Assembly (NCBI GenBank): GCA_017416485.1
Contig: JAFQCH010000018.1
Span: 1-64,000 of the forward strand
Direction of reading: 5' to 3'
DNA: 64,000 nucleotides
Origin: Clostridia bacterium
GTDB taxonomy: Bacteria; Bacillota; Clostridia; Oscillospirales; Acutalibacteraceae
A model generated the notes under the pieces. The model ran no database searches, was not told where the DNA came from, and saw nothing but the letters and a program-made list of their open reading frames with translations. Below are positions 2,553 through 40,694 of this stretch, in pieces. Numbering within the stretch: position 1 is the first letter of the stretch; every line of letters begins with the position of its first letter. The position numbers and the translations under genes were made by a program.

Positions 2553-3950
2553 ATGAAAGAAAATTTGCTTCTGCGTTTGCGCAATGGTGAAAATCTGAAT
2601 ACTCGGCAGCAGGTCACCATGATTCTGCAACTGAGTCTGCCTGCTATTTTTGCGCAATTGTCAAGCATTGGCATGCAGTACATTGATGCATCCATGGTCG
2701 GTCAACTCGGTGCACAGCAATCGGCATCCATCGGGCTTGTTTCCTCCAGCACATGGCTGTTTAACGGCGTCTGCAATGCGGCAATCACGGGCTTTTCGGT
2801 GCAGGTGGCACAGTGCATTGGTGCAGGGAAAAACAGGGATGCCCGTTCTGTTATGAAACAAGGCTTTTTGGTTGCGCTTGGTGTGTCGGTGCTTTTGTGT
2901 GTGCTTGGTGCGGGTATCAGCGGCAAATTGCCCGCGTGGCTCGGTGGCAATGCAGACATCTGTGCGGATGCAACATGGTATTTTCTCATTTATGCATTGG
3001 CATTGCCTTTTTCACAGCTCAACAACATTTCCGCCGCCATGCTGCAGGCAAGCGGGAATATGCGAACCCCGAGTATGTTGTTTGTTGTGATGTGCTTGCT
3101 GGACGTTGTTTTTAACTTCTTCCTGATTTTCCCGACAAGGCAGGTTTACGGCATTACTGTTTTCGGTGCAGATCTCGGTGTAACGGGGGCTTCACTCGGC
3201 ACAGCGCTGTCGCATATTGTGAGTGCCGTTATTATGACACTGATTCTTCTTGTTCGTTCGGGCAGTCTGCATCTTCGCAGAAAAGAAAAATTGTGTATGA
3301 CCGTTCAGGCACTCCGTAAGGCAGCAAAAATCGGCATTCCTGTCGGCATCGAACAAACTATTATGTGCGGTGCATACATTTGCGGAACCCGCATTGTTTC
3401 CCCTTTAGGAACGGTTGCCATTGCGGCAAATTCCTTTGCCATCACCGCCGAAAGCCTTTGCTATATGCCCGGCTACGGCATCGGCAATGCCGCGACCACG
3501 CTCATCGGGCAAAGCATCGGTGCAAAACGGCATGATCTGACACGACGTCTCGGTTGGCTGACAACGGGCCTCGGTATGCTTGTTATGGGCTTTGCTGCAA
3601 TGCTGATGTATATTTTCGCCCCTGTTATGATCGGCATTATGACACCCGATGAATCGGTCGTTGCGCTCGGCGCGCAGGTGCTTCGTATCGCTGCATTTGT
3701 GGAGCCGTTTTATGCCGCTTCCATTGTTGCAAACGGAGTGTTCAGAGGGGCAGGGAATACCCTTGTTCCGAGTTGTCTGAACTTCGTCAGTATGTGGGCT
3801 GTGCGCCTGCCTCTGGCGGCAGTGTTGTCTGTGCGATACGGCTTAAAAGGCTATTGGCTTGCCATGTGCATAGAACTGTTTGTGCGTGGGGTGCTGTTCC
3901 TGTTGCGACTGAAAAGCAAAAAATGGATGCAGGCAAGCAGAAAAAATTGA
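2553..3950 (+). CDS. MATE-family multidrug/Na+ antiporter
   Basis: This 465-residue membrane protein has the twelve-helix layout of the MATE family, in two homologous halves. The N-terminal half contains LQLSLPAIFAQLSSIGMQYI, the usual first-helix pattern, and Q/N-rich helix 5-6 positions. The second half repeats it from about residue 250 (GIPVGIEQTIM). It exports organic cations or other small molecules in exchange for Na+ or H+. Length is normal for the family. The RBS is weak (GAAACGG). Its promoter faces that of the LytTR gene, which suggests local regulation. The substrate cannot be told from sequence. Confidence 0.92.
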   Translation: MKENLLLRLRNGENLNTRQQVTMILQLSLPAIFAQLSSIGMQYIDASMVGQLGAQQSASIGLVSSSTWLFNGVCNAAITGFSVQVAQCIGAGKNRDARSVMKQGFLVALGVSVLLCVLGAGISGKLPAWLGGNADICADATWYFLIYALALPFSQLNNISAAMLQASGNMRTPSMLFVVMCLLDVVFNFFLIFPTRQVYGITVFGADLGVTGASLGTALSHIVSAVIMTLILLVRSGSLHLRRKEKLCMTVQALRKAAKIGIPVGIEQTIMCGAYICGTRIVSPLGTVAIAANSFAITAESLCYMPGYGIGNAATTLIGQSIGAKRHDLTRRLGWLTTGLGMLVMGFAAMLMYIFAPVMIGIMTPDESVVALGAQVLRIAAFVEPFYAASIVANGVFRGAGNTLVPSCLNFVSMWAVRLPLAAVLSVRYGLKGYWLAMCIELFVRGVLFLLRLKSKKWMQASRKN

Positions 3951-4196: not shown

Positions 4197-4245
4197 GTTC
4201 CGATCAGGCAGAAAAAGCCCACATTTTTCTGTTTGCAGGCGGAAC
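4197..4245 (+). promoter_or_regulatory. Leader hairpin upstream of the giant gene
   Basis: Outer arms GTTCCG (4197-4202) and CGGAAC (4240-4245) enclose inner arms CAGAAAAA (4209-4216) and TTTTTCTG (4224-4231). The structure ends 42 nt before the start codon, inside the expected 5' leader. It may stabilise the very long mRNA or modulate translation (inference). Confidence 0.45.
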
Positions 4246-4286
4246 GTATAGTTAAAATAAAAAACATAAAAAAGGAAGGGTTTTTT

Positions 4287-7200
4287 ATGGAACAGAAAGC
4301 AAAGTTCACAAAGAAACTGCTCAGCACGTTTCTGGCTCTGCTGATGATTTTCTCTGCGTGTTACGCAGGGGTCAACGGTGTTTACACCGTTTATGCCGCA
4401 GCCGGCGACTCCAAGTACACCCATGCAGAAGTCATCGAAAGCATCAATGCTGCACTGGCAGACGGCAAGTCTTATTCCAGCGCCAACAATGCCTTCACGG
4501 TAACCGGCGACAACGGTAAGACTCTTGCTGCCGCAGAACGCATTTTTGACTACGCAGTCAAAACGTACAGAGGCGGCAGAGCCGACACTGCAAGCAACAA
4601 CTCGGGTGATACACTCCTTGCTGCATTCCTTGCAGAATTCCAGAGTGAATTCTCCAGCGATGAGCGCGGTACGCAGCTTGCTACTGCCGTTCTGAATCCG
4701 GCAGGCACAACTGTTAAGGGATATGAAAACAGAACTTGGGTAGAAAACAAGAAAAAAACAGGCCAGAGTAGCAACCCTGGGGTTGGTGCAGATTACACCG
4801 CCAATGCAACAGAATGGCCGAGTGGGGTGCCTGCATCTACAACAAAGACAGTTTCCATCAAAGTTGATGTGGATGCATTCCTGCAGTCTTATGATTTGAT
4901 TGATGATATTCCGTCATCTTTCCTTACGGAAGTGTCCTACACCTATGCATATGCCCAAGGTAAATATGCAGAGACTACAAAGGTGGATACCATTGACGGT
5001 GGTTGTGACGACGATACCTATGATGTGACTTACAAGTCTACTGTATGGAACTACATGTCCGCAAAGCCGGTCAGAACTGTCACCAAGAACACAACTGCTA
5101 AAAAGTACCTGAAATCCATTCTTAAGTTCTTCAATGAAGAAGTTTTGGCATACACGCAGGAAGATTTGCTTGATATGCCTCTTTCCACACTGGAATATTT
5201 GGACAAACAGGCGGTTGACTTCCAGGAGATGATGAACAACAACTTCAATGATGCAACCCTTGCTCATTTCGATGTTCCCAAGAGCGAAATTTCTGCATTC
5301 ATCACAAGACTTGCTTTTGCACACAAGGTTGTTGCCGCAAAGAGTGCTATCGACACCATGGATGCTTGGGTCGGCTCCGAATACAATGTCGAAAGTTACA
5401 GCCAGATGTCTTCCTTGTATAATAAGGTAAACTCTGCTTACAAAACAGCCAACGGCATGCAGACCGATGTCAAGACTTTCATCCTTGCAAACTATCCCGA
5501 AGTTGCTGCAAAGTACAACAGCATCAACTTCACTGAAGCCAAGGCTTATATTGACACTCTGTATGAGATCATGACCGAACAGCGCTTGGAAGAAATGGTC
5601 AACTCCATGATGGCAAAGTATAATGAGTATGATGCGCTGCTGATTCGTGAGAATGTCAATGATCCTTCCGATCCCGATGTTTCTTCGCTTCTTTCCAGCA
5701 AGAACACATGGAACAGCATTCTCGGCTCTTACACGAACAAAGCCTACTACCGCACCTATTACACCACTGGAATTCAGGCTCAGTGGGAATCTTTTGCTGC
5801 AAAGATTGATGCGGTTGCAGAAGTACGCGGGCTGAAGGCTGATTATCAGACTTATTATAATTATTTCTATCCTATTATATATACAGCAGATGTCAACAAT
5901 CATGACAATGATTTCCTGATGACTCTGTATGATGAAATGGATGGTCAGCTCGACAACCTGTCCAACAAGTACAAAGACATCAAAACAAACTACAACGAAA
6001 CCATTGCAGAGAACATTTTTACCCTCAACTATGGTGGTAAAGATCAGCTTCTGCAGGATATTGTAACCGAACAATCCGGAGCCGGTAAGGACGAAATCAA
6101 GAATATTCTCGTTGCAAGAACCGAACAGCAGATTGATAACGTGCAGGCTTATGCCGGTGTTACAACGGTTAACTTCGACAACTTTGCCGTGATCAAGTCC
6201 ACCATTTCTCACTTTGACTATGATCTTTATGATTATGTAACCAATAAGGGTTGGCTGTCTTCCGATTACGTTTCTAAGTACGGAATGGTGCAGACTCTGC
6301 TTGACAGATATCATGCATTCTCCAAGGCAGGAGACGGCGGCAAATCATTCTTCGATGAAGACTTTACCTTTGAAGAAGACGGCTACTATGCAATCCGTTA
6401 TGCAGGTGACCAGAAGGTTGCAACCGGTGAAACCGATGAAAACGGCGATGCAATCGTTGAACAACTCGGCTATCCCAACGACCTTGTCAGAGACGGTGCA
6501 GACGATAACTATTATGTAACCGAACAGACAATGGTTGACACCATTGCAAAACTCGACGGCTTCATCACCTCCCGTGACTTCGGTGCATTGCTGAACTTCT
6601 ATAATGAAGAAGAAGATGCATATGTAGGTCTCAAAGAGTACCTCAACATGATGCTTACGGATATGCTTTACACCGACAAGATGATCAACACCCTTGTCGG
6701 TGCCATCTTCCCGATGCTTTGTGAGATGATTGCCAACAAACTTGTTGGTGCAATCGGTGATCTTGACGGTGCGTGGGTAGATGATAACGGTATTCCGTGG
6801 ATTGATCTGCAGGCTGTCACCGGCTCCATCGGCGGCAATATTGCCCTTTATCTTGATAATGCAAGAGCTGCTTCACATGACGGTGGGGATCAGAAGGATT
6901 TTCCGACTGTATTCAAAGAACTCGGACTGTATATTTATCCGTATACTCTTGCACAGTCTCTTGCCATTTCCAACCCATCCTTCTATGGACCTGAATCCGA
7001 TATCTATAAAGCTCTCACCGCAGCCGGCAGGGATTGGTCCAAGCTTGTTGCTGAAGACGATCCTGCTACCCTCGATGTTGATGAAACCAAGGCTCTCGAA
7101 TTTGCCTGGGGTGTTTACGATCAGGATTCCTTCCTGGATACTCTTGCTTGCATTCTTGACTCCATCATTCCGCTGTTGCAGGCGGCGTTCTCAACCAAAG

Positions 7201-10200
7201 CATTTTCTGAAGAAGTTTCCAATGCTGCGATTGCATATTCTCCCGAGTTGCTTACTGTTAAGTCTGTTTTCATCCGCGGCGGTCTGAGATTGTCGATTCC
7301 TGCACTCGGTGCATACAACACGCTTATTGTTCCCCTGTTTGAAGTGCTCGGTGTTAAATCGATTCCCACTCTTTCTCCCGACTGCTCCGGTGACGATGTT
7401 TCACAGGCTGTATTCGGCACTTTGCTCAAGAGAGTGAATGAAATTCTTGATGCACCGCTTTCCACAATTCTTGAAATCCTTCCCAATCTTGTATATTTCC
7501 TTTCTATGGACAGTGTGCAGGAAATGCTGGACAGTCTGACGATTCCGCTGACTCTTTCCATTCACGAAGTTGAAGTTATTGACTTTGACGGTTGGTTAGG
7601 TTACTTGCTTGATGGTCTTGACGGCATGCTTGCTGATAAGATTTCCTTTGATGTCGAATTGGTTGTTGCAGATCTGATCAATGAACAGGGCGGGCTGTAC
7701 GGCCTGCTTGGCTTCGAACTTACCAACTTCAATGAAGTCATTACAGGGCTCATTCCGATGCTCGGCGGCCTGCTCGGCGGCGAAGAATCCGCAATTGACC
7801 TTTCCGCGCTGACCCTGCCTCCCATCAGACAGCAGGATCTCATTTTCTGTTCTGACTGGGTCGGTGCAGAAGGCGATCCCGCACCTCTCAGAGCCAACAA
7901 GGGCGACCTGCTTTACTGGTTGCTTGACTACCTTGTTTCTGCTCTTGAAGATCCCGCATTTATGGATATGATCATGGGCTTGCTCGGTTCTTCCGAAGAA
8001 GGCGGAATCAGCGGTATGATTACTCCTTTGATTCAGAAGATCACTGCTTCCTTTGCCGGTAATCCCAGAGGTGCACTTGCCGCAATCATGGAAGTGCTCA
8101 ACCCCGTATCCTATGACCTCAAGGAAATGACATGGGTTGAAAGCCAGTGGGGCTACGAAGGCATCGACGGCCTGCAGCCCGTTGACATGATCTATCTTAA
8201 TTACTCCAACGACTGGAACGAAGAAAAGGCTAACTACCTTGTAGATAACTTTGATTCTCTTCTTTCCACCATTCTTGAAATGGTTGAAATGGATCTCGGT
8301 GATGCCGAAAACCTCGGTGCATTCCTGCAGGGCAAGATCAATGCTCTGTTCACCAATGCAAACATCACCAAACTGGTTGAAATGCTTTGCGGCCTCGGTG
8401 ACAGCGCAAGCGCAGTCATTGCAGACGTTGTTACCAATCAGGTCGGCATCAACATTGCATCCTGGTTCAAGGCATTCGGTTATCTCTTCCCGGCAGAAAC
8501 CTGGGCAGAAGATGCTGAAATCATCAAACCCACCGATAAGGCTTATATCAACAACCTCGGCATTGAAGGCATTGCAAATGAAGACGGCACCATTTCCTGG
8601 TTCTTCAACAGAATGCCGCTTGTTGACGGCGACGGCTACACCTTCGTCAACATCCTTTCCAGACTGCTCGGCGAAGCACAGATCCTTATTGAGTTCCTGT
8701 TTGCGGGCACAGACGTTTCCGCATTCGCAGGTGTTCTCAAACTCATCGGTTACGAAACCTTTGAAAGCACCCTCGGTATGCTCATGGAAGCAATCGGTGT
8801 TGTAGGTGTGCCTTCGCAGGCACAGTTCAATGCTGACCCGATGGGTAGCTTCACCAACACCCTCATTGCTCTTCTTGACTGGTTCTATGCTCTGACCGAT
8901 GCGGAAGACTTTGCATCTCAGCTTCTTGAGCTCATTCCCGACCTCTTCTATTACATTGAAAGCAACGGCCTGTCCGTCCTGCTTCACAACCTTCTCATGC
9001 CCGTTCTGGTATTGGTTGATACCATCAGACCGCTGTTTGATATCAACATCAACCAGCTTCTGTCCATCATCGTTTCCGATTTCATTTCCTTCGGTGAATT
9101 CAACATGGACACCATTCTGCAGTATGTTCTCCATGGTATCTATATCGGTTCCGATGATCCCGATTATGTAGAAATCAATATTGATCTCAACAACCTCAGA
9201 GTTTCCGACATTCTTAAGATTGTTGATCAGATTGCAGGCACAAACCTCTATGAAAGCAACCTTGTGGAATATGGTGTCACAGGCTTCTGCTCCGGTGTTA
9301 TTGATGTAACCACCGACGAAGGTTATGCTTACAAGATGACCACCGTTACCGCAGCCGATGCCATTACCATTCTGGTAACCGGTCTGCTGGAAGCTCTTGG
9401 CCAGCCCGCACAGGATACCACCAAGACCAACGGCGATGTCCTCTTCGCATTCCTTGGCGAAATGATGAACAGTGCAACCATTGCCGGTCTGTATCCCGTC
9501 CTTGCAGGTATTCTTGAAGGTATTGACGTCACCTATACCGAACCCAATTGGGGCTATATGCTTCCCGCCGGCGGCGACATCTTCACCCTCGGTAACGCAA
9601 GAGAAACCATTGGCTATCTTGCTTACACCACCGACTGGACACCTGCAAGAGCAGCTGCTGTTTACGATAAACTCGATGAACTTCTTGTTTCCCTCGTTGC
9701 TGACTTCGACGGCGATGTTGCAACACTTGTCAACAGCATACTCGAAGACAAAGTTTACTCCGATGCAAACCTCAACATGATCATTGAAACAATCGTAAAC
9801 CTGTTCGCAGGTATCAATGCTTCTTTGTTTGATCTTGTTGATGTTATCCTCGATACTGAAATCGCCGACTGGTTCGGTATGTGCGAAGAACAGACCGATG
9901 CCGAAACCGGCGAAACCAAGCTTGTCTGCACCAAGGATTGGGGTGTTGATGAAGCAACCGATAAGAGAGCAACCTTCATGGCAGCTCTTGTCGAAGTTCT
10001 CACGCCCGCAAACACCCTTCTTGAATGGGCACTCTTCGGCAACGGTATTGAATTCTTCACCGGCTCCGAAAAGGATGAAGACGGCAACTACACTTATAAT
10101 GATATAATTGCCATTGCCGGCAGCGAAGGCTATGACCGTGCAATCGTTCCGATCTTCAGAGCACTCGGTATTGCTCTTGCTCCCGCTTCTTCCTTCAACA

Positions 10201-13200
10201 ATGCGGTGGAAGCTGTTGAAGCAATCCTCAACGGTCTGTTTGATCTTATTGATTCTCTCACGGATGCAGAAAGCACCGTTGCTGCTGTTATTAACCTGAT
10301 TCCGAATCTCATTTACTTCCTGAATGCAGACGGCTTCAAGTCCAGCATCAACAACCTGCTTGATCCCATCAATGCACTGCTTAAAAAAGTCGGTCCTCTT
10401 CTTGGTGACGGCGAAGAAATCAGCATCAATGCTCTTCTCGGTGATTCTCTTCCCATTGATATCACCAACCTCACCACCGAAGCAGTTCTTAAACTTCTCA
10501 CAACACTCGAAGTCAATGGCGCACCTCTCAACATTCAGTTTGTCGCTTATGACGAAGACGGTAATGAACTGTATGATCTCGGTGAAATCCTCAGCACGCT
10601 GTATGTCGGCGAACTTGCAGCTTACGACTATGCTGACGATCTTACCGGTTACTATCTTGATCTCGGCGATGCCGAATACGATGTTCTGACTCTCGTTCTC
10701 AGCTTTGCAATTGAACTGTTCACCATCAACGGCGACCTCTTTGCAGGTCTCATCGGTGAAGACAGTGCTGCCATCATCGACGGCATCATCGGCTTGCTTG
10801 CAGGTTACTCCGTAACTTACACTGCTCCCGATTGGGCTTACATGTATGAAGGCGAAGATGCACTTGCACAGCTTGCTGCAAACGGCTTCCCGAAAATTGA
10901 ATTTGCATATCTTGCTTATGCAAATGAATGGGATGCACCCACTGCACAGGGCATCTATGATATGCTCGATGACGTTCTTGTTATGGTTATGGACAGCGTT
11001 GCAGGCGGTAACACCATTGCTCAGCTTATCGAAGGCATTCTGACCGACAAAGTTTACTCCGATGCAAACCTTACCGCTATCGTTGAACTGATCGTCAATG
11101 CAATCGCAGGTTTCGATGCAAACCTCCGTGATCTTCTTGACATCGTTCTTGATACCGACATCGCAACCTGGTTCACATTCTGTAAAGAACAGACCGATGC
11201 TGAATCCGGTGAAACCAAGTTCGTCTGCACCAAGGATTGGGGCGTTGATGCCGCAGCTGATGCCGCCGCAAAGAAAACCGCATTCGTTGCAGGTCTTAAG
11301 GAAGTCCTTGCTCCCGCAAACGCACTTCTCGCATGGCTGTTCTTCGGCGAATCCTACACCTTCTTCAACGGTCACGATGGTGAAGTTCTCATCAATCTTG
11401 CCGGTAACGAAGGTTATGCACAGGGTCTTGTACCTCTGTTTGAAGCTCTTGGCTGCACCATGAAACCCGCATCTGATTACTACGATGCAACCAATAAAAC
11501 TTACAACGTCGGCAATGCTGTTGCAGATATCCTCGATGCTGCACTTGCTCTCGTTGATAAAATCTCCGCCAATCCGATTCCCGAAGCATTCGCACTCATC
11601 CCGAACCTGCTGTACTTCATCAATGCAGGCGGTCTGAACTCCGCAATTGCAAACCTTCTTGCTTCTGTCAACGGCGTCATTGCTAACCTTGGCGATGTTG
11701 TCGGCGCAGAAAGCGCACAGGCACTGCTTGCAAAACTTATTAACTTCGACCTCAGCAACCTTGACACCGATGCTGTCTTTGCACTTCTTGCAACAAAAGT
11801 CGGATTCATCACCAATGCCGAAATGGTTGCAGCTGTAAAGAACATTTTTGCAGTCGGTGAAGCTGATTCCTTCACATCCGCAAACGGTGCAACCGCTTAC
11901 AGAGTTGACATCGCCGGCAGGGAATACGATGTTCTTACTGTGGTGCTTGCATTCGCACTCGATGCATTCAAACTCAACGGCGAACTCTTCTCCGAACTTC
12001 TCGGTGCTGAACAGTATCAGGCAGTTCTCAACCTGCTTGCAGGTGCAATCGATGAATTTGAATATGTCGATATCAACTGGGCATACATGTATGACGGCGA
12101 CCTTGCACAGCTTGAAAATGCAAACGGCGAATTCCCCGAAAGAACCGGCTCCGCATACACCATCTACACCCAGTATATGAACAACTGGAACAAGGAAACT
12201 GCTGATTATCTCAACGACGTACTTGATACTCTTGTTCAGGAAATCGTCAAGATCGCAAAGGATGAAAACACCAGCATCGGCAAGATGCTTGATGATGCCA
12301 TCACCAACGGTCTGTACACCAACAACATTCTCAATTCTTTGATTAAAGCTGCTGTCGGCGCTTTGGTTGCCTATGAAGATATCATCGTCAAGGCAGGCGT
12401 TCTTCTTGATGCACAGGGGCTTGCAACCTGGTTCGATGATTACTGTGTCATCGATAAGGAAGGCAATGTAACTGTTACCAAGGATTGGGGCATTGACTCC
12501 GCAGCAACAAATGAAGCCAAGAAGGCAGCATTCGTTGAAGGCTTTGTTGAAGCACTTCAGCCCGCATACAGACTCCTTGCATGGCTTCTGTTCGAAAAGG
12601 ACTTCGAATTCCTGACCGACTACGCAGGTGCTGACCACATCGTTATCACCGGCGGCGCAGGCTACAACGAAGCATTCGTACCTCTCCTCGAAGCGCTCGG
12701 TGCTGAAATGAAGCCCGCAAGTGCATACACAGATGCTGACGGCAACATCGATATGGAAAATGTTGTCAGAGACATCTTCACCGCAGTTACCGATATTCTT
12801 TCCTCTATCTGCGGCGATCTGCAGAATCCCGGTGAAAAGGGTGCAATCGGCACTATGCTCGATCTGCTTCCCAATGTCATTTACTTCATCAATGCAGACG
12901 GTGTAAAGGCAGTTGTCAACAACCTGCTGGCTCCCGTAAACTTCATTCTCAATGAACTCAAGGCATTCGGTGTCAACATTGACTTCGCAACTCTTATCGA
13001 AGGCATCGACATCACCAACCTTGACTGGTATGCAGTATTTGATATTGTTGAAGATCTTGTGCCGCTGTACTTCCCGGATTTCACACAGGAATTCCTTGCA
13101 ACCCTTTACATGGGCAAGGCTGAAGCTTACACTTCCGCAAACAGTGAAACCGCATACCGCATGGTTTACACCGAAGAAGAATCCAGAAGAGATATGATCA

Positions 13201-14930
13201 CGGTTGTTATTTCCTTCGTCGGCGATGCATTCGTTGATGCAAGAAATAAAGATCAGCTTGTTGACTGGATGGGCGAGGATATCTATAAGGTTCTCCTTAC
13301 TTACCTCTCCTGTGCTGCCGTTTCTGTTGAAATGCAAGACTTTACATGGTTGAGCACGGAAGCAGGTACGAAGTTCTCTCCCATCACCGGCAGACCTTCC
13401 AGTGGTTCTGCAAGTGTGCCTGCAGGCGAAGGCAGCATCTATGATACCGTTTACGGTAAGTACTTCACCCCTGAAATGGGTCAGTACATGGAAGACACTC
13501 TTCCCGAATTCATTGACACTGTAATCGAACTGCTTGGTTTTGAAGATGCAAACGGCGATGGTGTTTACGAAAATCTTGAAGAAATTCTTGATTCTCTCAT
13601 CGGCGAAACCCTTTACACCAAGTCCAATCTCGAAGCCATTGCTGGTGCTCTTCCCGGCTTGATCGATATGATTAAGGAAGCTGTCGGCGAAGAACTTTAT
13701 GTCATGATCGCCAACGTTCTCAATACTGCTCTCGGTATTGACCTGAACTACTGGAATAACTACAGAGTTTCCGATATCGAAGAAGGCAACAGAGATCAGT
13801 TTGTTGGCGAACTCATCAGACTTCTCAAGCCTGTACATCCCATTCTCGGATGGTTGCTTGCTGACGAAGACCTGATCGCTCTGTTCCACAGTGCAGACGG
13901 TTCCGGCAGAGACTTGATCGTTGTCGAAGGTGCCGAAGGTTATGCTTACGGTATCATTCCGATTCTCGAAGCGCTCGGTTGCGATGCAGACAGCATCCGT
14001 ACTCCGGAAGAATTCAAGCTTGTTGCCGAAAGCAATCAGCCTGAAAACATGCTCAGACTGATTCTCAACCCGCTGCTTGACAAGGTTGACATCGTTCTGG
14101 CTGATCCCGTCAATGAACTCTTTGAAATCCTTCCCGGCGTCATCTTCTTTATGAATTCCAATGGTCTTGATACCATTATCAAGAACACCGCAAATGCAAT
14201 CTTTGCAGTTCTTGAAAATCTTGAACCCGCTATCGGCAAACTTGATATTTATGAACTGATCGGATTCGATCCGACCACTCTGAATATCAACACCATCATC
14301 GAAGAAATGCTTGCAGATCTCGATGAAAAGACCGAACTTGAGTTCAAGGCAGCTGCTATGGATGCTGTCGGCGAACTGACCATCGGTGAAGTTGTCGAAT
14401 TCACTTCCAAGAACGGCAACACCGCATACACCATGAAGTATGCATCCGAAGAAGACAGAACCGATATGGCAACCGTACTTCTCCGTTTCGTTCTGACCAT
14501 CGTCACGGTTGAAGAAAATGCAAGATCCATTAAGATCATGCTCAAGGATGCTCTGGATGAAGATGCTTATAAGTTCGTTTGTGCGTTGCTTGACAACTTC
14601 GTTGACATGGCACAGTCGGCTGACGGCATGGATAAGATCCTCTACACCATCTACTACATCTATGTAGGCGCTAAAGAAGGTGCCGACGGTGTGGACGGCG
14701 CACTTGACGATGCAAACGACAACTATGGCTTTATGCAGGATCTGCTTGAAAACAGCAGTGTTCCTTTCCTGAAAGACATTGCCGGCACGCTCGGCGATTT
14801 CCTGGATAAGAACTTCGATGATATTGTTGATTCCGAAGGCATTATTCCCAATGGCTTCATCAAGTTCTTCCAGTCTCTGTTTGATCTCTTTGAAAAGATC
14901 ATCAACTGGTTCAAAGGTTTCTTCAATTAA
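4287..14930 (+). CDS. Giant secreted repeat protein (~3547 residues), function unknown
   Basis: The start is the ATG at 4287, 6 nt after AAGGAAGGG; an in-frame upstream ATG at 4233 lacks an RBS. Residues 1-38 are a signal peptide: a basic KFTKK stretch, LLSTFLALLMIFS and a cleavage region near VYAAAG. Residues 40-~900 are helical with no domain I recognise. From about 1279 onward there are five divergent repeats of 415-470 residues, starting near residues 1279, 1751, 2179, 2594 and 3017, plus a degenerate one before. Each opens with a W-x-YM-like motif and contains a Y(S/T)xAN(L/I) helix, an ASWF/ATWF motif, a TKDWG motif in three copies, an (L/I)IPNLIYF(L/I)N helix and a YDVLTLVL segment. 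The protein is acidic and Cys-poor. There is no LPxTG or SLH domain; it ends in a hydrophobic amphipathic helix (FEKIINWFKGFF). A surface or matrix role is inferred. Confidence 0.85.
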   Translation: MEQKAKFTKKLLSTFLALLMIFSACYAGVNGVYTVYAAAGDSKYTHAEVIESINAALADGKSYSSANNAFTVTGDNGKTLAAAERIFDYAVKTYRGGRADTASNNSGDTLLAAFLAEFQSEFSSDERGTQLATAVLNPAGTTVKGYENRTWVENKKKTGQSSNPGVGADYTANATEWPSGVPASTTKTVSIKVDVDAFLQSYDLIDDIPSSFLTEVSYTYAYAQGKYAETTKVDTIDGGCDDDTYDVTYKSTVWNYMSAKPVRTVTKNTTAKKYLKSILKFFNEEVLAYTQEDLLDMPLSTLEYLDKQAVDFQEMMNNNFNDATLAHFDVPKSEISAFITRLAFAHKVVAAKSAIDTMDAWVGSEYNVESYSQMSSLYNKVNSAYKTANGMQTDVKTFILANYPEVAAKYNSINFTEAKAYIDTLYEIMTEQRLEEMVNSMMAKYNEYDALLIRENVNDPSDPDVSSLLSSKNTWNSILGSYTNKAYYRTYYTTGIQAQWESFAAKIDAVAEVRGLKADYQTYYNYFYPIIYTADVNNHDNDFLMTLYDEMDGQLDNLSNKYKDIKTNYNETIAENIFTLNYGGKDQLLQDIVTEQSGAGKDEIKNILVARTEQQIDNVQAYAGVTTVNFDNFAVIKSTISHFDYDLYDYVTNKGWLSSDYVSKYGMVQTLLDRYHAFSKAGDGGKSFFDEDFTFEEDGYYAIRYAGDQKVATGETDENGDAIVEQLGYPNDLVRDGADDNYYVTEQTMVDTIAKLDGFITSRDFGALLNFYNEEEDAYVGLKEYLNMMLTDMLYTDKMINTLVGAIFPMLCEMIANKLVGAIGDLDGAWVDDNGIPWIDLQAVTGSIGGNIALYLDNARAASHDGGDQKDFPTVFKELGLYIYPYTLAQSLAISNPSFYGPESDIYKALTAAGRDWSKLVAEDDPATLDVDETKALEFAWGVYDQDSFLDTLACILDSIIPLLQAAFSTKAFSEEVSNAAIAYSPELLTVKSVFIRGGLRLSIPALGAYNTLIVPLFEVLGVKSIPTLSPDCSGDDVSQAVFGTLLKRVNEILDAPLSTILEILPNLVYFLSMDSVQEMLDSLTIPLTLSIHEVEVIDFDGWLGYLLDGLDGMLADKISFDVELVVADLINEQGGLYGLLGFELTNFNEVITGLIPMLGGLLGGEESAIDLSALTLPPIRQQDLIFCSDWVGAEGDPAPLRANKGDLLYWLLDYLVSALEDPAFMDMIMGLLGSSEEGGISGMITPLIQKITASFAGNPRGALAAIMEVLNPVSYDLKEMTWVESQWGYEGIDGLQPVDMIYLNYSNDWNEEKANYLVDNFDSLLSTILEMVEMDLGDAENLGAFLQGKINALFTNANITKLVEMLCGLGDSASAVIADVVTNQVGINIASWFKAFGYLFPAETWAEDAEIIKPTDKAYINNLGIEGIANEDGTISWFFNRMPLVDGDGYTFVNILSRLLGEAQILIEFLFAGTDVSAFAGVLKLIGYETFESTLGMLMEAIGVVGVPSQAQFNADPMGSFTNTLIALLDWFYALTDAEDFASQLLELIPDLFYYIESNGLSVLLHNLLMPVLVLVDTIRPLFDININQLLSIIVSDFISFGEFNMDTILQYVLHGIYIGSDDPDYVEINIDLNNLRVSDILKIVDQIAGTNLYESNLVEYGVTGFCSGVIDVTTDEGYAYKMTTVTAADAITILVTGLLEALGQPAQDTTKTNGDVLFAFLGEMMNSATIAGLYPVLAGILEGIDVTYTEPNWGYMLPAGGDIFTLGNARETIGYLAYTTDWTPARAAAVYDKLDELLVSLVADFDGDVATLVNSILEDKVYSDANLNMIIETIVNLFAGINASLFDLVDVILDTEIADWFGMCEEQTDAETGETKLVCTKDWGVDEATDKRATFMAALVEVLTPANTLLEWALFGNGIEFFTGSEKDEDGNYTYNDIIAIAGSEGYDRAIVPIFRALGIALAPASSFNNAVEAVEAILNGLFDLIDSLTDAESTVAAVINLIPNLIYFLNADGFKSSINNLLDPINALLKKVGPLLGDGEEISINALLGDSLPIDITNLTTEAVLKLLTTLEVNGAPLNIQFVAYDEDGNELYDLGEILSTLYVGELAAYDYADDLTGYYLDLGDAEYDVLTLVLSFAIELFTINGDLFAGLIGEDSAAIIDGIIGLLAGYSVTYTAPDWAYMYEGEDALAQLAANGFPKIEFAYLAYANEWDAPTAQGIYDMLDDVLVMVMDSVAGGNTIAQLIEGILTDKVYSDANLTAIVELIVNAIAGFDANLRDLLDIVLDTDIATWFTFCKEQTDAESGETKFVCTKDWGVDAAADAAAKKTAFVAGLKEVLAPANALLAWLFFGESYTFFNGHDGEVLINLAGNEGYAQGLVPLFEALGCTMKPASDYYDATNKTYNVGNAVADILDAALALVDKISANPIPEAFALIPNLLYFINAGGLNSAIANLLASVNGVIANLGDVVGAESAQALLAKLINFDLSNLDTDAVFALLATKVGFITNAEMVAAVKNIFAVGEADSFTSANGATAYRVDIAGREYDVLTVVLAFALDAFKLNGELFSELLGAEQYQAVLNLLAGAIDEFEYVDINWAYMYDGDLAQLENANGEFPERTGSAYTIYTQYMNNWNKETADYLNDVLDTLVQEIVKIAKDENTSIGKMLDDAITNGLYTNNILNSLIKAAVGALVAYEDIIVKAGVLLDAQGLATWFDDYCVIDKEGNVTVTKDWGIDSAATNEAKKAAFVEGFVEALQPAYRLLAWLLFEKDFEFLTDYAGADHIVITGGAGYNEAFVPLLEALGAEMKPASAYTDADGNIDMENVVRDIFTAVTDILSSICGDLQNPGEKGAIGTMLDLLPNVIYFINADGVKAVVNNLLAPVNFILNELKAFGVNIDFATLIEGIDITNLDWYAVFDIVEDLVPLYFPDFTQEFLATLYMGKAEAYTSANSETAYRMVYTEEESRRDMITVVISFVGDAFVDARNKDQLVDWMGEDIYKVLLTYLSCAAVSVEMQDFTWLSTEAGTKFSPITGRPSSGSASVPAGEGSIYDTVYGKYFTPEMGQYMEDTLPEFIDTVIELLGFEDANGDGVYENLEEILDSLIGETLYTKSNLEAIAGALPGLIDMIKEAVGEELYVMIANVLNTALGIDLNYWNNYRVSDIEEGNRDQFVGELIRLLKPVHPILGWLLADEDLIALFHSADGSGRDLIVVEGAEGYAYGIIPILEALGCDADSIRTPEEFKLVAESNQPENMLRLILNPLLDKVDIVLADPVNELFEILPGVIFFMNSNGLDTIIKNTANAIFAVLENLEPAIGKLDIYELIGFDPTTLNINTIIEEMLADLDEKTELEFKAAAMDAVGELTIGEVVEFTSKNGNTAYTMKYASEEDRTDMATVLLRFVLTIVTVEENARSIKIMLKDALDEDAYKFVCALLDNFVDMAQSADGMDKILYTIYYIYVGAKEGADGVDGALDDANDNYGFMQDLLENSSVPFLKDIAGTLGDFLDKNFDDIVDSEGIIPNGFIKFFQSLFDLFEKIINWFKGFFN
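8125..14650 (+). repeat. Array of five long protein-coding repeats inside the giant gene
   Basis: Repeat units begin near 8125, 9541, 10825, 12070 and 13339 and are about 1.25-1.4 kb each. Units 2 and 3 are the most alike: a stretch around 9749-9774 recurs almost unchanged at 11047-11072, and both carry near-identical DNA for an EQTDAE.GETK segment followed by TKDWGVD. Units 1 and 5 are the most divergent. This pattern fits growth by tandem duplication from the middle. Confidence 0.75.
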
Positions 14931-14937
14931 CCTCAAA

Positions 14938-14970
14938 AACCCCGCTTGCGGATATCCGCAGGCGGGGTTC
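14938..14970 (+). terminator. Hairpin after the giant gene
   Basis: AACCCCGC (14939-14946) pairs with GCGGGGTT (14963-14970), with an inner palindrome TGCGGATATCCGCA. The following T-run is weak. Confidence 0.65.
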
Positions 14971-15019
14971 GTCTGTATATAGAATAAAATACTCTGCAAA
15001 TAACCAAAATGGTGTGTTA

Positions 15020-24187: not shown

Positions 24188-25858
24188 ATGGCAAAATACG
24201 CAATCGGTGTTGACTACGGTACACTTTCGGGCAGAGCATTGCTTGTGGATGTGCAAAGCGGTGAAGAACTCTGCTCGGCAGTTCTCGATTATCCCCATGC
24301 CGTTATGGATGAAACCTTGCCCTGCGGCAAAAAATTAGGTGTGGACTGGGCTTTACAGCATCCGCAGGACTATCTGGATGTGCTTTACACCACCATTCCT
24401 GCCATTCTTAAAGAATCCAAAATCAACCCTGCCGATGTCATCGGTATCGGTCTTGATTTTACAGCCTGCACATTGTTGCCTGTTAAAAGAGACGGCACAC
24501 CGCTGTGCTTCATGGAAGAATACAAGAGTGAACCCCACGCCTATGTGAAGCTGTGGAAACACCATGCCGCACAGGCGCAGGCAAACAAACTCAACGAGAT
24601 TGCAGAATCACGCGGTGAAGAATGGCTCAAGAACTACGGCGGAAAAATTTCTTCCGAATGGGCAATCCCGAAGATTTGGCAGGTGCTCGATGAAGCCCCC
24701 GAAATCTACGAAGCCGCAGATACCTTTATTGAAGCCGCTGATTGGGTTACATGGCAGCTTTGCGGTAAAGAAAACAGAAGTGCCTGCTGTGCAGGTTACA
24801 AAGAAATGTGGAACAAGCGCACGGGCTATCCGTCCAAAGATTTCTTCAAAGCGCTTGATGCAAGACTTGAAAACGTTGTCGAAGATAAACTCGGCAAAGA
24901 AATCAGCCCCATGGGCGGCAAAGCAGGTGAACTGACCGCTGAAATGGCAGCTAAAACAGGTCTTTGCGAAGGCACCGCTGTTGCGGTCGGCATTATCGAT
25001 GCACACGTTTTCGTACCTGCTGTCGGCATTGCCGAAGAAGGTAAAATGCTTGCCATTATGGGTACTTCCACCTGTCATATGCTTCTCGGTAAAGAAGAAA
25101 AGCAGGTGCAGGGTATGTGCGGTGTGGTTGAAGACGGCATTCTGCCCGGATTCTTCGGCTACGAAGCAGGTCAGTCCTGTGTGGGTGACCACTTTGCATG
25201 GTTTATTGACAACTGTGTGCCCGAATCTTACAAAAAAGCAGCCGCAGAAGAAGGCATGAATATACATAAATATCTTCGTTCCAAGGCCGAAAAACTGAAA
25301 GCCGGCGAATCCGGTCTTGTTGCACTCGATTGGTGGAACGGCAATCGTTCCTGCCTTGTTGACGTGGATCTGACGGGTATGATGCTCGGAATGACTCTGC
25401 AGACCAAACCTGAAGAAATCTACAGAGCACTCATTGAAGCCACGGCATACGGCACAAGAATGATCATCGAAACCTTCCGTGAATACGGTGTTCCCGTGCA
25501 TGAGTTCTATGCCGCAGGCGGCATTGCCAAGAAAGATCCCATGACCATGCAGATCTATGCCGATATCATCCGCATGCCCATCCGCATTGCAGGCAGTGAT
25601 CAGGGCGGTGCACTCGGCTCGGCTATTTTCGGTGCTTGTGCCGCAGGAAAAGAAAACGGCGGTTATGATGATGTTTTTGAAGCCGCAAAGAAACTCGGTA
25701 AGGTTATGGATACGGTTTATTATCCCAACGAAAAATCCGCAGAAATTTACGATGCACTGTTTGCCGAATACAGAATTCTGCATGATTACTTCGGCAGAGG
25801 TGCCAATGACGTTATGAAGCGCCTTAAAAACATCAAAAAGAAAGTGGCAGGTGTGTAA
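24188..25858 (+). CDS. araB: L-ribulokinase AraB
   Basis: This 556-residue FGGY-family kinase phosphorylates L-ribulose to L-ribulose 5-phosphate. [13 protein letters not shown] is the N-terminal phosphate-binding segment, GLDFTACT the substrate region, MGTSTCHM and [12 protein letters not shown] the ATP-binding motifs. E. coli AraB is 566 residues. The RBS is GAGGAATG before ATG 24188. It is the first gene of an araB-araA-araD set, so L-arabinose enters the pentose phosphate pathway. No transporter or AraR is in the window. Confidence 0.96.
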
Positions 25859-25859
25859 G

Positions 25860-27329
25860 ATGAAACAGAATAAATTCTACTTTGTTGTCGGTTCACAGCA
25901 CCTTTACGGTCCCGAAACCCTGCAGATGGTCGATGCGGATGCAAAGACAATGGTAGACGGTTTTAATGCCGATGAGAATATTCCTTGCGAAATTGTTTTT
26001 CTGCCTTGCGTGAAAACTTCTGCCGAAATTGCGGATGTTATGAATAAAGCCAATAATGACCCCGCTTGCGCAGGTGTCATCTGCTGGATGCACACCTTCT
26101 CTCCATCCAAAATGTGGATCAAAGGTCTTTCCATGTTGCAAAAGCCCTATCTGCATCTGAACACGCAGTTCAACCGTGATATTCCGTGGAGCACCATCGA
26201 CATGGATTTCATGAATCTTAACCAGTCTGCCCACGGTGACCGCGAACACGGCTACATCACAGCCCGTCTGAACAAAGCCCGCAAAGTTATTGCAGGCCAT
26301 TGGGAAAATGCCGACTTCCGCAAGGAAATCGGTGTGTGGATGCGTGCTGCCGTCGGCTATAAAGAGAGCATGTCCCTTCGTTGCCTGCGCATTTCCGATA
26401 ATATGCGTTCCGTTGCTGTTACCGACGGCGACAAGGTCGAAGCACAGTACAAACTCGGTTGGGAAATTGAACACTACGGTGTCGGCGATATCATCAACTA
26501 TGTTGAACAGGTCACTGATTCCGAAATCGATGCACAGATCGAAGAATACAAAAAATATTACACCTTTGCGACTGATAACACGGATGCTGTCCGTTATCAG
26601 GCTCGTGAAGAAATTGCCATCAAGCGCTTTATGGATGAAAGAGGCTTCACCGCTTTTCATACCAATTTTGAAGATCTGCAGGGGCTTCGTCAGTTGCCCG
26701 GTCTTGCATCGCAGGATCTCATGCGCCTCGGCTACGGCTTCGGTGCAGAAGGCGACTGGAAGGTAGCCGCCATGACAAGAGTGCTCAAAGCCATGACCGC
26801 AGATATGAACGGCGGAACGGCATTCATGGAAGACTATACCTATCATTTTGAACCCGGTAACGAAATGATTATGGGTGCACACATGCTCGAAATCTGCCCG
26901 ACCATTGCGCAGACCAAGCCCGAAATTCAGGTACATCCCCTCGGCATCGGCGGCAGGGAAGACCCCGCAAGACTTGTCTTCAAAGCCAAGCCCGGTGCTG
27001 CCATTGTTGTTTCTCTTGTCGATATGGGAACCCATCTTCGCATGATCGTCAATGACATCGAATGCGTTGAACAGGTCAACGAAATGCCCAAACTGCCGGT
27101 TTCCGGTGTGCTGTGGAAGCCGATGCCAAACCTTAAAACATCCGCAGAAGCATGGATTTATGCAGGCGGTGCACATCATTCTGTGCTGTCTTATGATGTC
27201 ACGGCAGAAATGATGCGTGACTTTGCCGAAATGGCAGGAATTGAATTTGTGCACATCAATAAAAATACAAAAATTGCAGATTTCAGACGCGAACTGCAAT
27301 ACAATGCCGTCATTTTCGGCAGAGGTTAA
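25860..27329 (+). CDS. araA: L-arabinose isomerase AraA
   Basis: The 489-residue enzyme converts L-arabinose to L-ribulose. FYFVVGSQHLYG at the start, MHTFSPSKMWI, LHLNTQFNRDIPW, and the Mn-binding E/H positions in MEDYTYHFEPGNE and GAHMLEI are typical. ATG 25860 is chosen: it lies one base after the araB TAA with AGGTG upstream. An alternative GTG at 25851 would add three residues and overlap araB. Confidence 0.96.
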   Translation: MKQNKFYFVVGSQHLYGPETLQMVDADAKTMVDGFNADENIPCEIVFLPCVKTSAEIADVMNKANNDPACAGVICWMHTFSPSKMWIKGLSMLQKPYLHLNTQFNRDIPWSTIDMDFMNLNQSAHGDREHGYITARLNKARKVIAGHWENADFRKEIGVWMRAAVGYKESMSLRCLRISDNMRSVAVTDGDKVEAQYKLGWEIEHYGVGDIINYVEQVTDSEIDAQIEEYKKYYTFATDNTDAVRYQAREEIAIKRFMDERGFTAFHTNFEDLQGLRQLPGLASQDLMRLGYGFGAEGDWKVAAMTRVLKAMTADMNGGTAFMEDYTYHFEPGNEMIMGAHMLEICPTIAQTKPEIQVHPLGIGGREDPARLVFKAKPGAAIVVSLVDMGTHLRMIVNDIECVEQVNEMPKLPVSGVLWKPMPNLKTSAEAWIYAGGAHHSVLSYDVTAEMMRDFAEMAGIEFVHINKNTKIADFRRELQYNAVIFGRG

Positions 27330-27332
27330 GCT

Positions 27333-28031
27333 ATGTTTGAAGAACTGAAACAACGCGTATATGAAGCCAATATGATGCTTCCCGCGTATGGCATTGCTCC
27401 TTTTACCTGGGGCAATGCTTCGGAAATCGACCGTGAAGCAGGTGTGTTTGCCATCAAACCCTCGGGGGTTGCTTACTGTGATTTAAAGCCCGATGATATT
27501 GTGGTTCTGAATATGAACGGCGAAGTGGTGGACGGTAATCTCAATCCGTCCTCCGACACCGCAACCCATCTTGAACTATATAAGGCATTTCTGACCCTTG
27601 GCGGGGTTGTGCACAGTCATTCCGAATTTGCTGTGGCCTTTGCGCAGGCAGGACGTGACATTCCTGCCTACGGCACAACTCATGCCGACTTTGCCTATGG
27701 TGATATTCCTTGTTGCCGTGCACTCACCAAAGAAGAAATCGAAGGCGAATACGAAAAGAATACAGGCCTTGTCATTGCCGAACATTTTGCAAAGAACAAT
27801 CTTGATCCCAATGCAATTGTAGCGGTCAATGTCAAGTCACACGGACCCTTTGCATGGGGCAAAAATGCAAAAGAAGCCGCCAAAAATGCCGCAACACTCG
27901 AAATCGTTGCTCGGATGGCACTTAAAACGGAGCTGCTCGGCGGTAAAGAACGAGTAGACAACAATCTTTTGGATAAGCATTATTTTCGTAAGCACGGCGA
28001 AAATGCTTATTACGGTCAGAAAACGGAGTAA
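27333..28031 (+). CDS. araD: L-ribulose-5-phosphate 4-epimerase AraD
   Basis: This 232-residue class II aldolase-like enzyme makes D-xylulose 5-phosphate. WGNASEIDR, KPSGVAY, DTATHLELYKAF, HSHSEFAVAFAQ with the zinc histidines, and GTTHADFAYG are visible. The size is that of E. coli AraD (231). It begins 3 bp after araA. Confidence 0.96.
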   Translation: MFEELKQRVYEANMMLPAYGIAPFTWGNASEIDREAGVFAIKPSGVAYCDLKPDDIVVLNMNGEVVDGNLNPSSDTATHLELYKAFLTLGGVVHSHSEFAVAFAQAGRDIPAYGTTHADFAYGDIPCCRALTKEEIEGEYEKNTGLVIAEHFAKNNLDPNAIVAVNVKSHGPFAWGKNAKEAAKNAATLEIVARMALKTELLGGKERVDNNLLDKHYFRKHGENAYYGQKTE

Positions 28032-36760: not shown

Positions 36761-37933
36761 ATGAAAAAAGTCCTTTCCGTTATCCTTTCACTTTGCATGG
36801 TTCTTCCGTTTGCATTTGCTGTAACTGCAACGGAAAACACAGATGTACTGCAGTTTGATGAAAACGGCGAATTTGTGATTATGCATCTTTGTGACTGTCA
36901 GGACGGTTTCCCTGCAAGCGAAACCATGCTTGCGTTCATCCGCTATACCATTGCAAAGTATGATCCTGATATCGTTGTTCTCGGCGGCGACAACACCGTT
37001 GGCCCTAAAGAAACAAAGGCACAGGCCATTGAAGAACTGGTTACCCCCTTTGTTGAAAGTGAAACCTATTTTGCTGTTACCTTCGGCAATCACGACAATG
37101 AACAGGGTGTTGATAAGGAACAACTGTTGGAATACTATCAGCAGTTCGGCGGCGAATATTGCCTGACGATTGATATTGTTCCCGAGCTGTTCGGTGTCGG
37201 CACACACAATCTGCCTGTTCTCAGTTCCGACGGCAGCAAATATGCTTTCAACATCTGGACATTTGACTCCAATACCTATGTTGAAGGCGGCGGTTATGAT
37301 GCCGTGCATGAAGATCAGATCGAATGGTACAAGCAGACCGCTGCTGATCTTGCAGCAGCCAACGGCGGTGAAGTTGTTCCCGCAATGGCATTCCAACACA
37401 TTATTGTCGGCGAAGTTTTCCCGGCTATATTCCAGACTTATCCCGAAGCACTTGCAGTGCCGGACATCACCAAGACCGTTGACGGTGTGACCTATTCTTT
37501 CACTCCGCAGTATGACCGCATCACAAGCGGCGTTGTTATGGAATTCCCGTGCCCCGGCGAAATCAACTACGGTCAGTTTGATGCCTTCCTTGCAGTCGGC
37601 GATGTGATTGCAACCTTCTCCGGCCATGACCACATCAACTCCTTTACCGTTCCTTATAAGGGCATTGACATTGTCAATACCCCCGGTGCAACATTTAACT
37701 CTTACGGTGATGATTCCAACCGCGGTTGCCGCATTCTGACCATCAACGAAAATGATCCCGAAAATTACAAGAATGAACTTGTCAGCATTTCGGATGTTAT
37801 TCTCAGCGGCGAAGACGAAGCACTCAATGCAACAAAAGATGCTTCCATGATCAAAGCTTTGTTCGGTAAATTCGTGCAGATCATCATCGATGTTTTCTGC
37901 AAGGTTGTCGGCTTTATTCAGGGCATTGCATAA
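36761..37933 (+). CDS. Secreted calcineurin-like metallophosphoesterase
   Basis: The 390-residue protein starts with a signal peptide (MKKVLSVILSLCMVLPFAFA, residues 1-~22). The metal motifs of the calcineurin family follow in order: D near residue 46, GGDN at about 76-79, GNHDNE near 107, a central H in FQH, and SGHDH near 290. These bind two metal ions and hydrolyse phosphoester bonds; the target may be extracellular nucleotides or sugar phosphates. The last ~25 residues form a hydrophobic helix (FVQIIIDVFCKVVGFIQ), like the end of the giant protein. AAAGGAG precedes the ATG. Confidence 0.88.
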   Translation: MKKVLSVILSLCMVLPFAFAVTATENTDVLQFDENGEFVIMHLCDCQDGFPASETMLAFIRYTIAKYDPDIVVLGGDNTVGPKETKAQAIEELVTPFVESETYFAVTFGNHDNEQGVDKEQLLEYYQQFGGEYCLTIDIVPELFGVGTHNLPVLSSDGSKYAFNIWTFDSNTYVEGGGYDAVHEDQIEWYKQTAADLAAANGGEVVPAMAFQHIIVGEVFPAIFQTYPEALAVPDITKTVDGVTYSFTPQYDRITSGVVMEFPCPGEINYGQFDAFLAVGDVIATFSGHDHINSFTVPYKGIDIVNTPGATFNSYGDDSNRGCRILTINENDPENYKNELVSISDVILSGEDEALNATKDASMIKALFGKFVQIIIDVFCKVVGFIQGIA

Positions 37934-39513: not shown

Positions 39514-40662
39514 TTATTTTGTGATTTTGCGGATAACGGCAGCGGTTGTGCCGATGAGAGCAACTGCGGTTGCTCCCAACAGGGAATACTTGTATTTCTG
39601 CAAACCGTCTGCATCCAGCAGATAACGAAGCTGTGCCCAAACGCCATTGCCCATAATATTATCATAGGTCAGATGGTAGGTCTTGAAATCTGCGGGGTTC
39701 TTTTCGTCCAGTTCAAAAATACGCACACCGCGGTTTTTGACACCGTAACAACGTAAGGAGGCACATGCTGTTTGAATCATACGAACCCCGTTCCATGTGC
39801 CGTCAAAGCAATTAGTGTGGTCATGCCCTGCAACGACGGCCTGAATGGTGCCGTCTTCTTTAATCGCATCAAACAGCCCTGTATTCTTTTCAAGCATGCA
39901 CGGAAACTCACCGAGATCACCGCTTGCAAGATGCGGATTCAGGCGATAAAATTTCTTTTCTTTGGTTTCTCCATACAGATGATGGTCGATCACACCGCCC
40001 ACATACGGCGGGCATTCTTCCAGCAGATTTGCTTGCTCGGGCAGGGGAATGTGGATAAAGAACAGGCCCGGGATTGCACCGACAGTTTCCTTTGTTTTAG
40101 TGCTTACCTTTCTGAACCATGCAACTGCTTCTTCTGTTACGTAGGAATAAGTTTTCTTTTCCTGCTTGTCCTGCCATGCACTGTCAAACAGCCAAAAACG
40201 GAAAATCTCCTTTGTTTTGTCGGAAGAAAACAGGGGAATATAGCAAGTTCCGACTTCATGTATGTATTCTTTTTCTGTCGGCATTATGCAATTGGGGTAA
40301 CTGCTGTAAATTTCGGCTATTTCCTGCTTTGTAAGGCAGTTCATGTCATCGTGGTTGCCGAAGATGTAAACGAACGGAATGCCCCTTTTTTCAAGCGGAG
40401 CAATGATGTGGTCAATGGCTTTGATCATTCTTTTCTTTTCGCCGGCATCTGTTTTAACGGTATGTTTGGAACCGAACCGCGCATCGCGCAGATGATTGCC
40501 GAGCACATTGTCCCCGGTAAACACAACAAGGTCGGGTTTGACCTGATCATATACTTTATCAAGCATTGCGATCATGGTGTGGTTTGCAAAAGAAAGATCC
40601 TGCGGGTCGCTGACCTGCATCACGGTCAAATGTCCGTTCTTAAAACATATTTTTTTATTCAT
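39514..40662 (-). CDS. Calcineurin-like metallophosphoesterase with C-terminal membrane anchor
   Basis: The 382-residue protein shows VSDPQD (about 19), FTGDN, GNHDD, a central H and AGHDHTN, the ordered metal motifs of the family. There is no signal peptide; the C-terminus has one hydrophobic helix (LGATAVALIGTTAAVI) followed by RKITK, so it may be a tail-anchored membrane protein facing the cytoplasm. The ATG at 40662 is chosen; a TTG two codons earlier is possible. No clear RBS is seen, and a strong terminator hairpin lies only 12 nt upstream. It is related to the secreted phosphoesterase at 36.8 kb. Confidence 0.85.
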   Translation of the reverse strand: MNKKICFKNGHLTVMQVSDPQDLSFANHTMIAMLDKVYDQVKPDLVVFTGDNVLGNHLRDARFGSKHTVKTDAGEKKRMIKAIDHIIAPLEKRGIPFVYIFGNHDDMNCLTKQEIAEIYSSYPNCIMPTEKEYIHEVGTCYIPLFSSDKTKEIFRFWLFDSAWQDKQEKKTYSYVTEEAVAWFRKVSTKTKETVGAIPGLFFIHIPLPEQANLLEECPPYVGGVIDHHLYGETKEKKFYRLNPHLASGDLGEFPCMLEKNTGLFDAIKEDGTIQAVVAGHDHTNCFDGTWNGVRMIQTACASLRCYGVKNRGVRIFELDEKNPADFKTYHLTYDNIMGNGVWAQLRYLLDADGLQKYKYSLLGATAVALIGTTAAVIRKITK

Positions 40663-40694
40663 AATCAAAAATCGGGGCGGTCTGCAGACCGCCC
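40661..40694 (-). terminator. Terminator at the end of T-box operon A
   Basis: A perfect 20-bp palindrome, GGGCGGTCTGCAGACCGCCC (40675-40694), is followed on the minus strand by CGATTTTT. It ends the ACT-protein transcript, just before the next start codon. Confidence 0.85.

Follow-up and report, generated by a model that had tools for sequence, protein, structure and literature searches.

The gene at positions 4287-14930 of the window, the whole 64,000-nucleotide stretch of Clostridia DNA that was analysed, encodes a giant secreted repeat protein that ends in a greasy helical tail shared with unrelated exported proteins of the same lineage and, judged from the sequences, this tail looks like an undescribed way to hold proteins at the cell surface. 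On the same basis, the repeat units define a lineage-restricted and formerly unnamed protein family whose giant members reach about 10,600 residues. We regard as evenly balanced the case for a Sec-exported, modular giant of the cell surface whose tail would hold it at the membrane or at an anionic polymer of the envelope, with the tail serving as a retention signal throughout the lineage. The gene, its flanking start region and the parts of the protein are as follows.

4270..4286, + strand: ribosome-binding region AGGAAGGG, 5′ of the ATG at 4287 (direct sequence reading)
4287-14930, + strand: repeat-protein gene, one intact ORF, 3,547 aa (ORF list, translation)
4287..4400, + strand: signal peptide, residues 1-38, with a probable SPase I site near AAA36-39 (sequence)
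4401..6410, + strand: N-terminal domain, residues 39-708, ~670 aa (profile and BLAST comparison)
6411..7997, + strand: repeat unit 1, residues 709-1237, long and divergent (profile 1e-62)
8139..9506, + strand: repeat unit 2, residues 1285-1740, longer and more divergent (profile 5e-80)
9525..10784, + strand: repeat unit 3, residues 1747-2166 (profile 1e-101)
10809..12041, + strand: repeat unit 4, residues 2175-2585 (profile 3e-122; AlphaFold model m890f103eda14)
12051..13310, + strand: repeat unit 5, residues 2589-3008 (profile 5e-123)
13323..14594, + strand: repeat unit 6, residues 3013-3436 (profile 2e-114)
14595..14852, + strand: C-terminal domain, 86 aa, residues 3437-3522, of the NFxxMxxTxDGMDKILYTIYYIF type (comparison of C-termini)
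14853..14927, + strand: aromatic amphipathic tail GFIKFFQSLFDLFEKIINWFKGFFN, 25 aa, residues 3523-3547, three heptads (tail profile E 1.7e-8)

The ATG at 4287 appears to be the start of the gene, an in-frame TTG at 4233 being the poorer candidate. A MATE transporter gene upstream ends at 3950 and is followed by a hairpin and a T run, so that the giant gene looks monocistronic, and the order MATE transporter, giant and FMN oxidoreductase is kept in three species. The ortholog in the Oscillospiraceae MAG SIG562 (SVOJ01000002.1, L022) is 83% identical at the amino acid level, with a dN of 0.107, a dS of 0.535 and a dN/dS of ~0.2; at the sequence level the gene is under purifying selection, which together with the synteny indicates that it is real. 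Its marked codon bias (ENC 40, compared to 47 pooled) suggests high expression. The codons TTA, CTA and TCA occur 1.7 times per 1000 in the giant gene versus 7.7 in the other genes of the window and, as their complements are stops, their avoidance keeps the antisense frame open; the antisense ORF at 7596-14999 (- strand, 2,467 aa) was accordingly rejected as a gene, its open frame being accounted for by codon choice. A 7,693-aa antisense frame in another genome (G014:C33) has the same cause and is likewise not a gene. Elsewhere in the window, an L-arabinose cluster at 24188-28031 (+ strand) comprises an FGGY kinase (AraB-like), the isomerase AraA and a probable AraD epimerase.

The coordinates, the 3547-residue length and the signal peptide given by the first-pass annotation are all confirmed by the ORF and its sequence, whereas the internal division of the protein is revised. 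The non-repeat N-terminal part amounts to ~670 residues instead of the ~900 that had been proposed, and homologous versions of the domain are present in seven giants from the genus, that of the ortholog being 90% identical. The iterated repeat profile then resolves six units of 410-530 residues (E 1e-62 to 5e-123) in place of the five originally counted, and the repeats stand well above chance, with self-BLAST E values down to 1e-94. The previously noted IPNLIYF(I/L)N motif is real and occurs once per unit, at 1065, 1550, 2005, 2438, 2861 and 3282. After the last repeat come a C-terminal domain, which is conserved and lies 3′ of the last unit in other giants too, and the tail, both missing from the earlier description. 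The mature protein has a pI of about 4.05, a net charge of -347 and a cysteine content of 0.5%. In an alignment of 42 units invariance is confined to W9, F159 and N390, while Y37, P169, L174, F186, G199, G202, Y203, A213, L214, Y269, F270, N272, G275, N282, G350, D374 and T377 are near-invariant; no obvious conserved catalytic residue set is seen in this alignment, as would fit a unit with a structural or binding role.

Searches of Pfam (best E 0.099 and 13.4 bits against a cut-off of 22), NCBIfam (best E 0.2) and, with phmmer, the PDB sequences yielded no match for the giant, in agreement with the earlier statement that it has no recognised domain; three of its paralogs are likewise without a Pfam match, and a 42-row repeat profile reached at best E 0.03 in the PDB, onto short unrelated stretches. 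A clear homology of the repeat to a known family was thus looked for and did not occur. Structure prediction of a single unit, as had been proposed, gave a weak model of helices and hairpins: with an alignment of 12 rows, AlphaFold2 modelled unit 4 at best with a pLDDT of 56 and a pTM of 0.53, which is low confidence, and the central stretches of the model, at about residues 130-190 and 210-260, have a pLDDT of 64-87 and contain helices and beta-hairpins. A phase-shifted unit was modelled more poorly (pLDDT 46.7, pTM 0.39) with similar secondary structure, the folding alignments being only 10-12 rows deep, and a Foldseek search of the PDB with the low-confidence unit 4 model returned a best E of 1.3. 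The most that such weak models allow is a unit that is probably mainly helical with beta-hairpins, so the helical part of the formerly suggested repeated helical fold is retained with hairpins added to it. The three predicted beta-hairpins also raised the idea of a duplication within one unit, which was rejected as quarter-versus-quarter profiles gave boundary overlap only.

The profile search with the repeat that the annotation had called for revealed, besides the six units, a family confined to one lineage. In the source genome 33 unit-like matches fall in five genes, namely the window giant and four paralogs, which together make up about 51 kb of 3.0 Mb or ~1.7% of the genome. The largest paralog, on contig 13 (391-32322; L023, L024), is a 32-kb gene with a 10,643-aa frame and 18 units. 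The paralog on C8 is a 1500-aa frame with two units, an acidic linker and an amphipathic tail, that on C27 a 915-aa frame with two units, a C-terminal TM segment and lysines, and that on C35 a 484-aa frame with an N-terminal TM segment and one unit; the different attachment of these three suggests that the units are shown at the membrane via interchangeable anchors. The number of units per relative ranges from 4 to 18, with 6 in the window giant. The last unit and the C-terminal domain are the best-kept parts, with 38-58% identity between paralogs versus about 30% elsewhere, as would be expected if the arrays expanded by internal duplication.

The first genome search found repeat relatives in 26 of 26 genomes of the genus and in four more genera of the family. 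Overall, 18 of the 119 genera of the bacterial family carry the repeats, no relative turned up in the 23 genomes searched from the order's other families, and in a class-wide draw of 391 genomes the source genome was the only one with relatives. In a second genus a 9,406-aa frame contains at least 14 unit matches in the part of the frame that was read. A viral origin of the giant was considered and rejected, IMG/VR holding no relative. The genomes compared appear to be mostly MAGs, and contig 13, which carries the 10.6-kaa gene, matches a contig in the bin of another species (G017:C38) at 100% identity over 36.2 kb, so that an error or contamination in one of these bins is probable. A full-length ortholog of the 10,643-aa paralog is found in the genome G014, and its 79% identity keeps pace with the 83% of the ortholog of the window giant (P0001), which favours the placement of contig 13 in the genome of the window.

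The tail itself follows the consensus FFxKIIxFFxxIIxFFKxLF, with three heptads, paired hydrophobic positions and near-invariant F12, F13, F20, L23 and F24. In the window giant it lies 0 residues from the stop and has a hydrophobic moment of 0.77; the mean of 41 tails is 0.73, compared to 0.33 for random 28-mers (95th percentile 0.53). Phe and Trp make up 30% of the tails, the last 26 residues have an average net charge of +2.3, and a flexible acidic linker with a mean charge of -4.7 precedes them. The mean hydrophobicity of 0.65 is low for a membrane-spanning helix, and among the 39 C-terminal tails compared the linker is variable, the helix is amphipathic rather than transmembrane and no invariant short motif occurs 5′ of it. 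With its high moment and positive charge the tail has the sequence properties of in-plane amphipathic anchors, as which it may therefore be classed provisionally.

In the source genome, 16 tail-profile matches at E<=0.01 were found in frames of 230 to 10,643 aa, 14 of which end within about 14 residues of the stop, the other two being N-terminal; the tail thus closes 13 proteins besides the window giant. As the profile was built partly from source-genome sequences, their scores are partly so by construction, but an earlier, independent profile made from the giants only had already found the source-genome tails, seven of them at E<0.003. In this genome the tail is found on proteins with CHAP, with Big_2/DUF285/Flg_new, with SASA esterase and with BspA-type LRR (LRR_5) domains, a type I phosphodiesterase and a papain protease with a lectin-like domain, and in other species alpha/beta hydrolases and Ig-like arrays; no NCBIfam model matched the tails of the nine proteins scanned. 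Nearly all complete ORFs with a C-terminal tail that were examined have a signal-peptide-like N-terminus, as called by simple hydrophobicity rules in place of a trained predictor, and in the same check three tail-bearing relatives were 5′-incomplete or had no clear start; the N-terminus of the window protein is of the same type as those of the giants compared. Throughout the lineage sample, 39 of 42 tail matches lie at most 14 residues from the stop and three start at the initiator Met. These N-terminal helices belong to L107 (G000:C8:20108), L106 (G000:C23:64746) and L161/L200 (G007:C194) and have no separate signal peptide, and a domain scan of two of the three identified L107 and L200 as BD-FAE-type alpha/beta hydrolases. 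A 24,959-aa frame ending in a tail-like helix in G538, a genome of another genus (C10:5132-80008, L217-L220), was discarded, as 96% of its bases are N and it is not readable as protein.

All 26 genomes of the genus carry tails, from 2 to 22 each, while only five of the 390 class genomes other than the source have one weak match each. Among 120 family genomes the tail is present in 14 of 19 with repeats versus 10 of 101 without (Fisher p ~2e-8, which is indicative only, since some tails are on repeat proteins and the genera are not independent), and two or more tails in 12 of 19 versus 3 of 101. Two genomes, G448 and G450, have many tails and no repeats, so that the tail is an independent module; in the genus g3 repeats are present and no tail matches at E 0.01. 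Tail-bearing genera include g1, g4 and g9 as well as those to which G448, G450 and G489 belong. Sortases are found throughout the genus, and the tail would therefore be an additional route and no substitute for them. In the class genomes G129 and G203, both of a distant family, one ORF each (L177, L178) ends in a similar helix, NFFTSVGDFFKSIGDFFVNLFGG, which may be convergent. A signal-peptide protein at 36761-37933 (+ strand) of the window has as its C-terminus a weaker amphipathic helix that includes SMIKALFGKFVQIIIDVF and is possibly a degenerate tail, and an ORF resembling it at 39514-40668 (- strand) ends in a TM-like helix.

In the model that we propose, the giant would be exported by Sec, its order being signal peptide, ~670-aa N-terminal domain, array of ~430-aa units, C-terminal domain and tail. 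Once exported, the giant would be retained on the cell by its positive, Phe/Trp-rich tail, which would lie either within the outer leaflet of the cytoplasmic membrane or along an anionic polymer of the envelope. The array could then act as a long acidic spacer, presumably extended, across the wall and past it, and the N-terminal domain would face outward, probably for adhesion or contact, while unrelated exported proteins of the lineage would use the same tail for retention at the surface. In its general form, to which we give roughly equal weight for and against, the tail would be a C-terminal surface-retention signal of one Clostridia family, working through membrane insertion or a dedicated receptor and by no covalent processing, on giants as well as on smaller enzymes and adhesin-like proteins. 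Weighing against the model are the sortases of the genus, which already offer a route of anchoring, the repeats of g3 with no tail match and the tails of G448 and G450 with no repeats. A cell-surface location is plausible from the tail and the membrane-anchored paralogs, and to that extent the surface fibre envisaged by the first-pass annotation is plausible too, its shape as an extended rod being conjectural given the weak models.

Several features of the tail, namely its strictly C-terminal position, a conservation exceeding plain amphipathicity at F12, F13, F20, L23 and F24, and its restriction to the lineage, would also suit a recognition tag for a receptor, an assembly factor or a sorting machine dedicated to it in this lineage, in which the tail is docked or processed and not in lipid, by analogy to cohesin-dockerin pairs or to a sorting enzyme with its CTERM tag. 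However, no invariant motif precedes the helix as in the LPXTG, PEP and GlyGly signals, a TM segment and basic tail are absent, no partner was found, and the occurrence of the helix at the very N-terminus in three ORFs, including two alpha/beta hydrolases, is better suited to lipid binding, so we consider such a tag unlikely, if still a serious candidate. The heptad spacing with two neighbouring hydrophobic positions per turn could likewise indicate an oligomerisation helix that, as a coiled coil or helical bundle, gathers the giants or other exported proteins in fibres or complexes and has no role at the membrane. This appears improbable, since small hydrolases and giants share the tail with no obvious reason to co-assemble, its net charge is positive and its core positions are mostly aromatic, which is unusual in coiled coils.

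Two further possibilities concern other parts of the giant. Cys25 lies within a non-canonical lipobox, F-S-A-C at residues 22-25, with Y/F-T-A-C in several relatives, and could be acylated, making the giant a lipoprotein attached to the cell by its N-terminus instead of its C-terminus; yet a Phe at -3 departs from the canonical lipobox, the 10.6-kaa paralog and the G004 giant lack the Cys, and AxA-type sites lie downstream at about 35-45, which together leave this the most doubtful of the readings. Scarcely more probable is that the units form an array that binds or shuttles ligands, lipids or other hydrophobic molecules at the cell surface. The predicted amphipathic helices and the conserved aromatics W9, Y37, F159, Y203, Y269 and F270 would be consistent with such a function, which had been suggested before, but it found no direct support: no lipid-binding fold was matched, though the unit model is weak, and no lipid-related genes were found among the neighbours of the giant gene. 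If the tail does retain proteins as in the proposed model, many apparently secreted proteins of these uncultured bacteria would in fact stay on the cell, and much of the lineage's surface proteome would be predictable with a simple profile of the C-terminus.

Giant secreted repeat proteins are already known as a kind, but the present family has no match in Pfam, NCBIfam or the PDB; the literature searched, in which few subscription journals were covered, yielded no account of such a tail or repeat family, and a review of surface display in monoderms nowhere uses the words amphipathic, amphiphilic or monotopic (PMC5817068). By analogy, the nearest in kind to the giant appear to be the Giants of Apilactobacillus kunkeei and Embp. 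Giant1-5 are secreted proteins of 3,000-8,000 aa with a signal peptide, of which Giant2 has 13 imperfect repeats of 366 aa, Giant1-3 form helical rods and Giant1-4 have N-terminal beta-solenoids; their C-terminal domain is the SH3b-like DUF5776 (PMC12863079). The window family has in common with them the size class, signal peptide, long internal repeats, conserved C-terminal segment and lineage restriction, but differs in its repeats, its C-terminal domain and its amphipathic tail, and no Pfam match to a DUF5776 or SH3b-like domain is present anywhere in the window giant. Embp of Staphylococcus epidermidis is described as an array of F-repeats (10) and FG-repeats (40) with two alpha-helical bundles in every repeat, and is likewise a megadalton-class, repeat-built and helical protein on the cell surface, helicity and surface location being predicted for the window giant, which in contrast has ~430-aa units, predicted beta-hairpins and no Pfam match (PMC7587433). 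The tail, in turn, seems closest by distribution to the CTERM signals. LPXTG/sortase, PEP-CTERM/EpsH (PMC1569441) and GlyGly-CTERM/rhombosortase (PMC3237569) are C-terminal sorting signals, and the tail resembles them as a short C-terminal homology on unrelated exported proteins of certain lineages only, but lacks their signature motif and their hydrophobic span with a basic cluster; on direct reading, the C-terminus of the window giant also has no LPXTG-like motif. By presumed mechanism the closest counterpart would be the pestivirus Erns, which is described as exported and membrane-held by an in-plane C-terminal amphipathic helix (PMC4536213); Erns is a single viral protein with a longer helix, and the likeness to the tail would be one of mechanism only.
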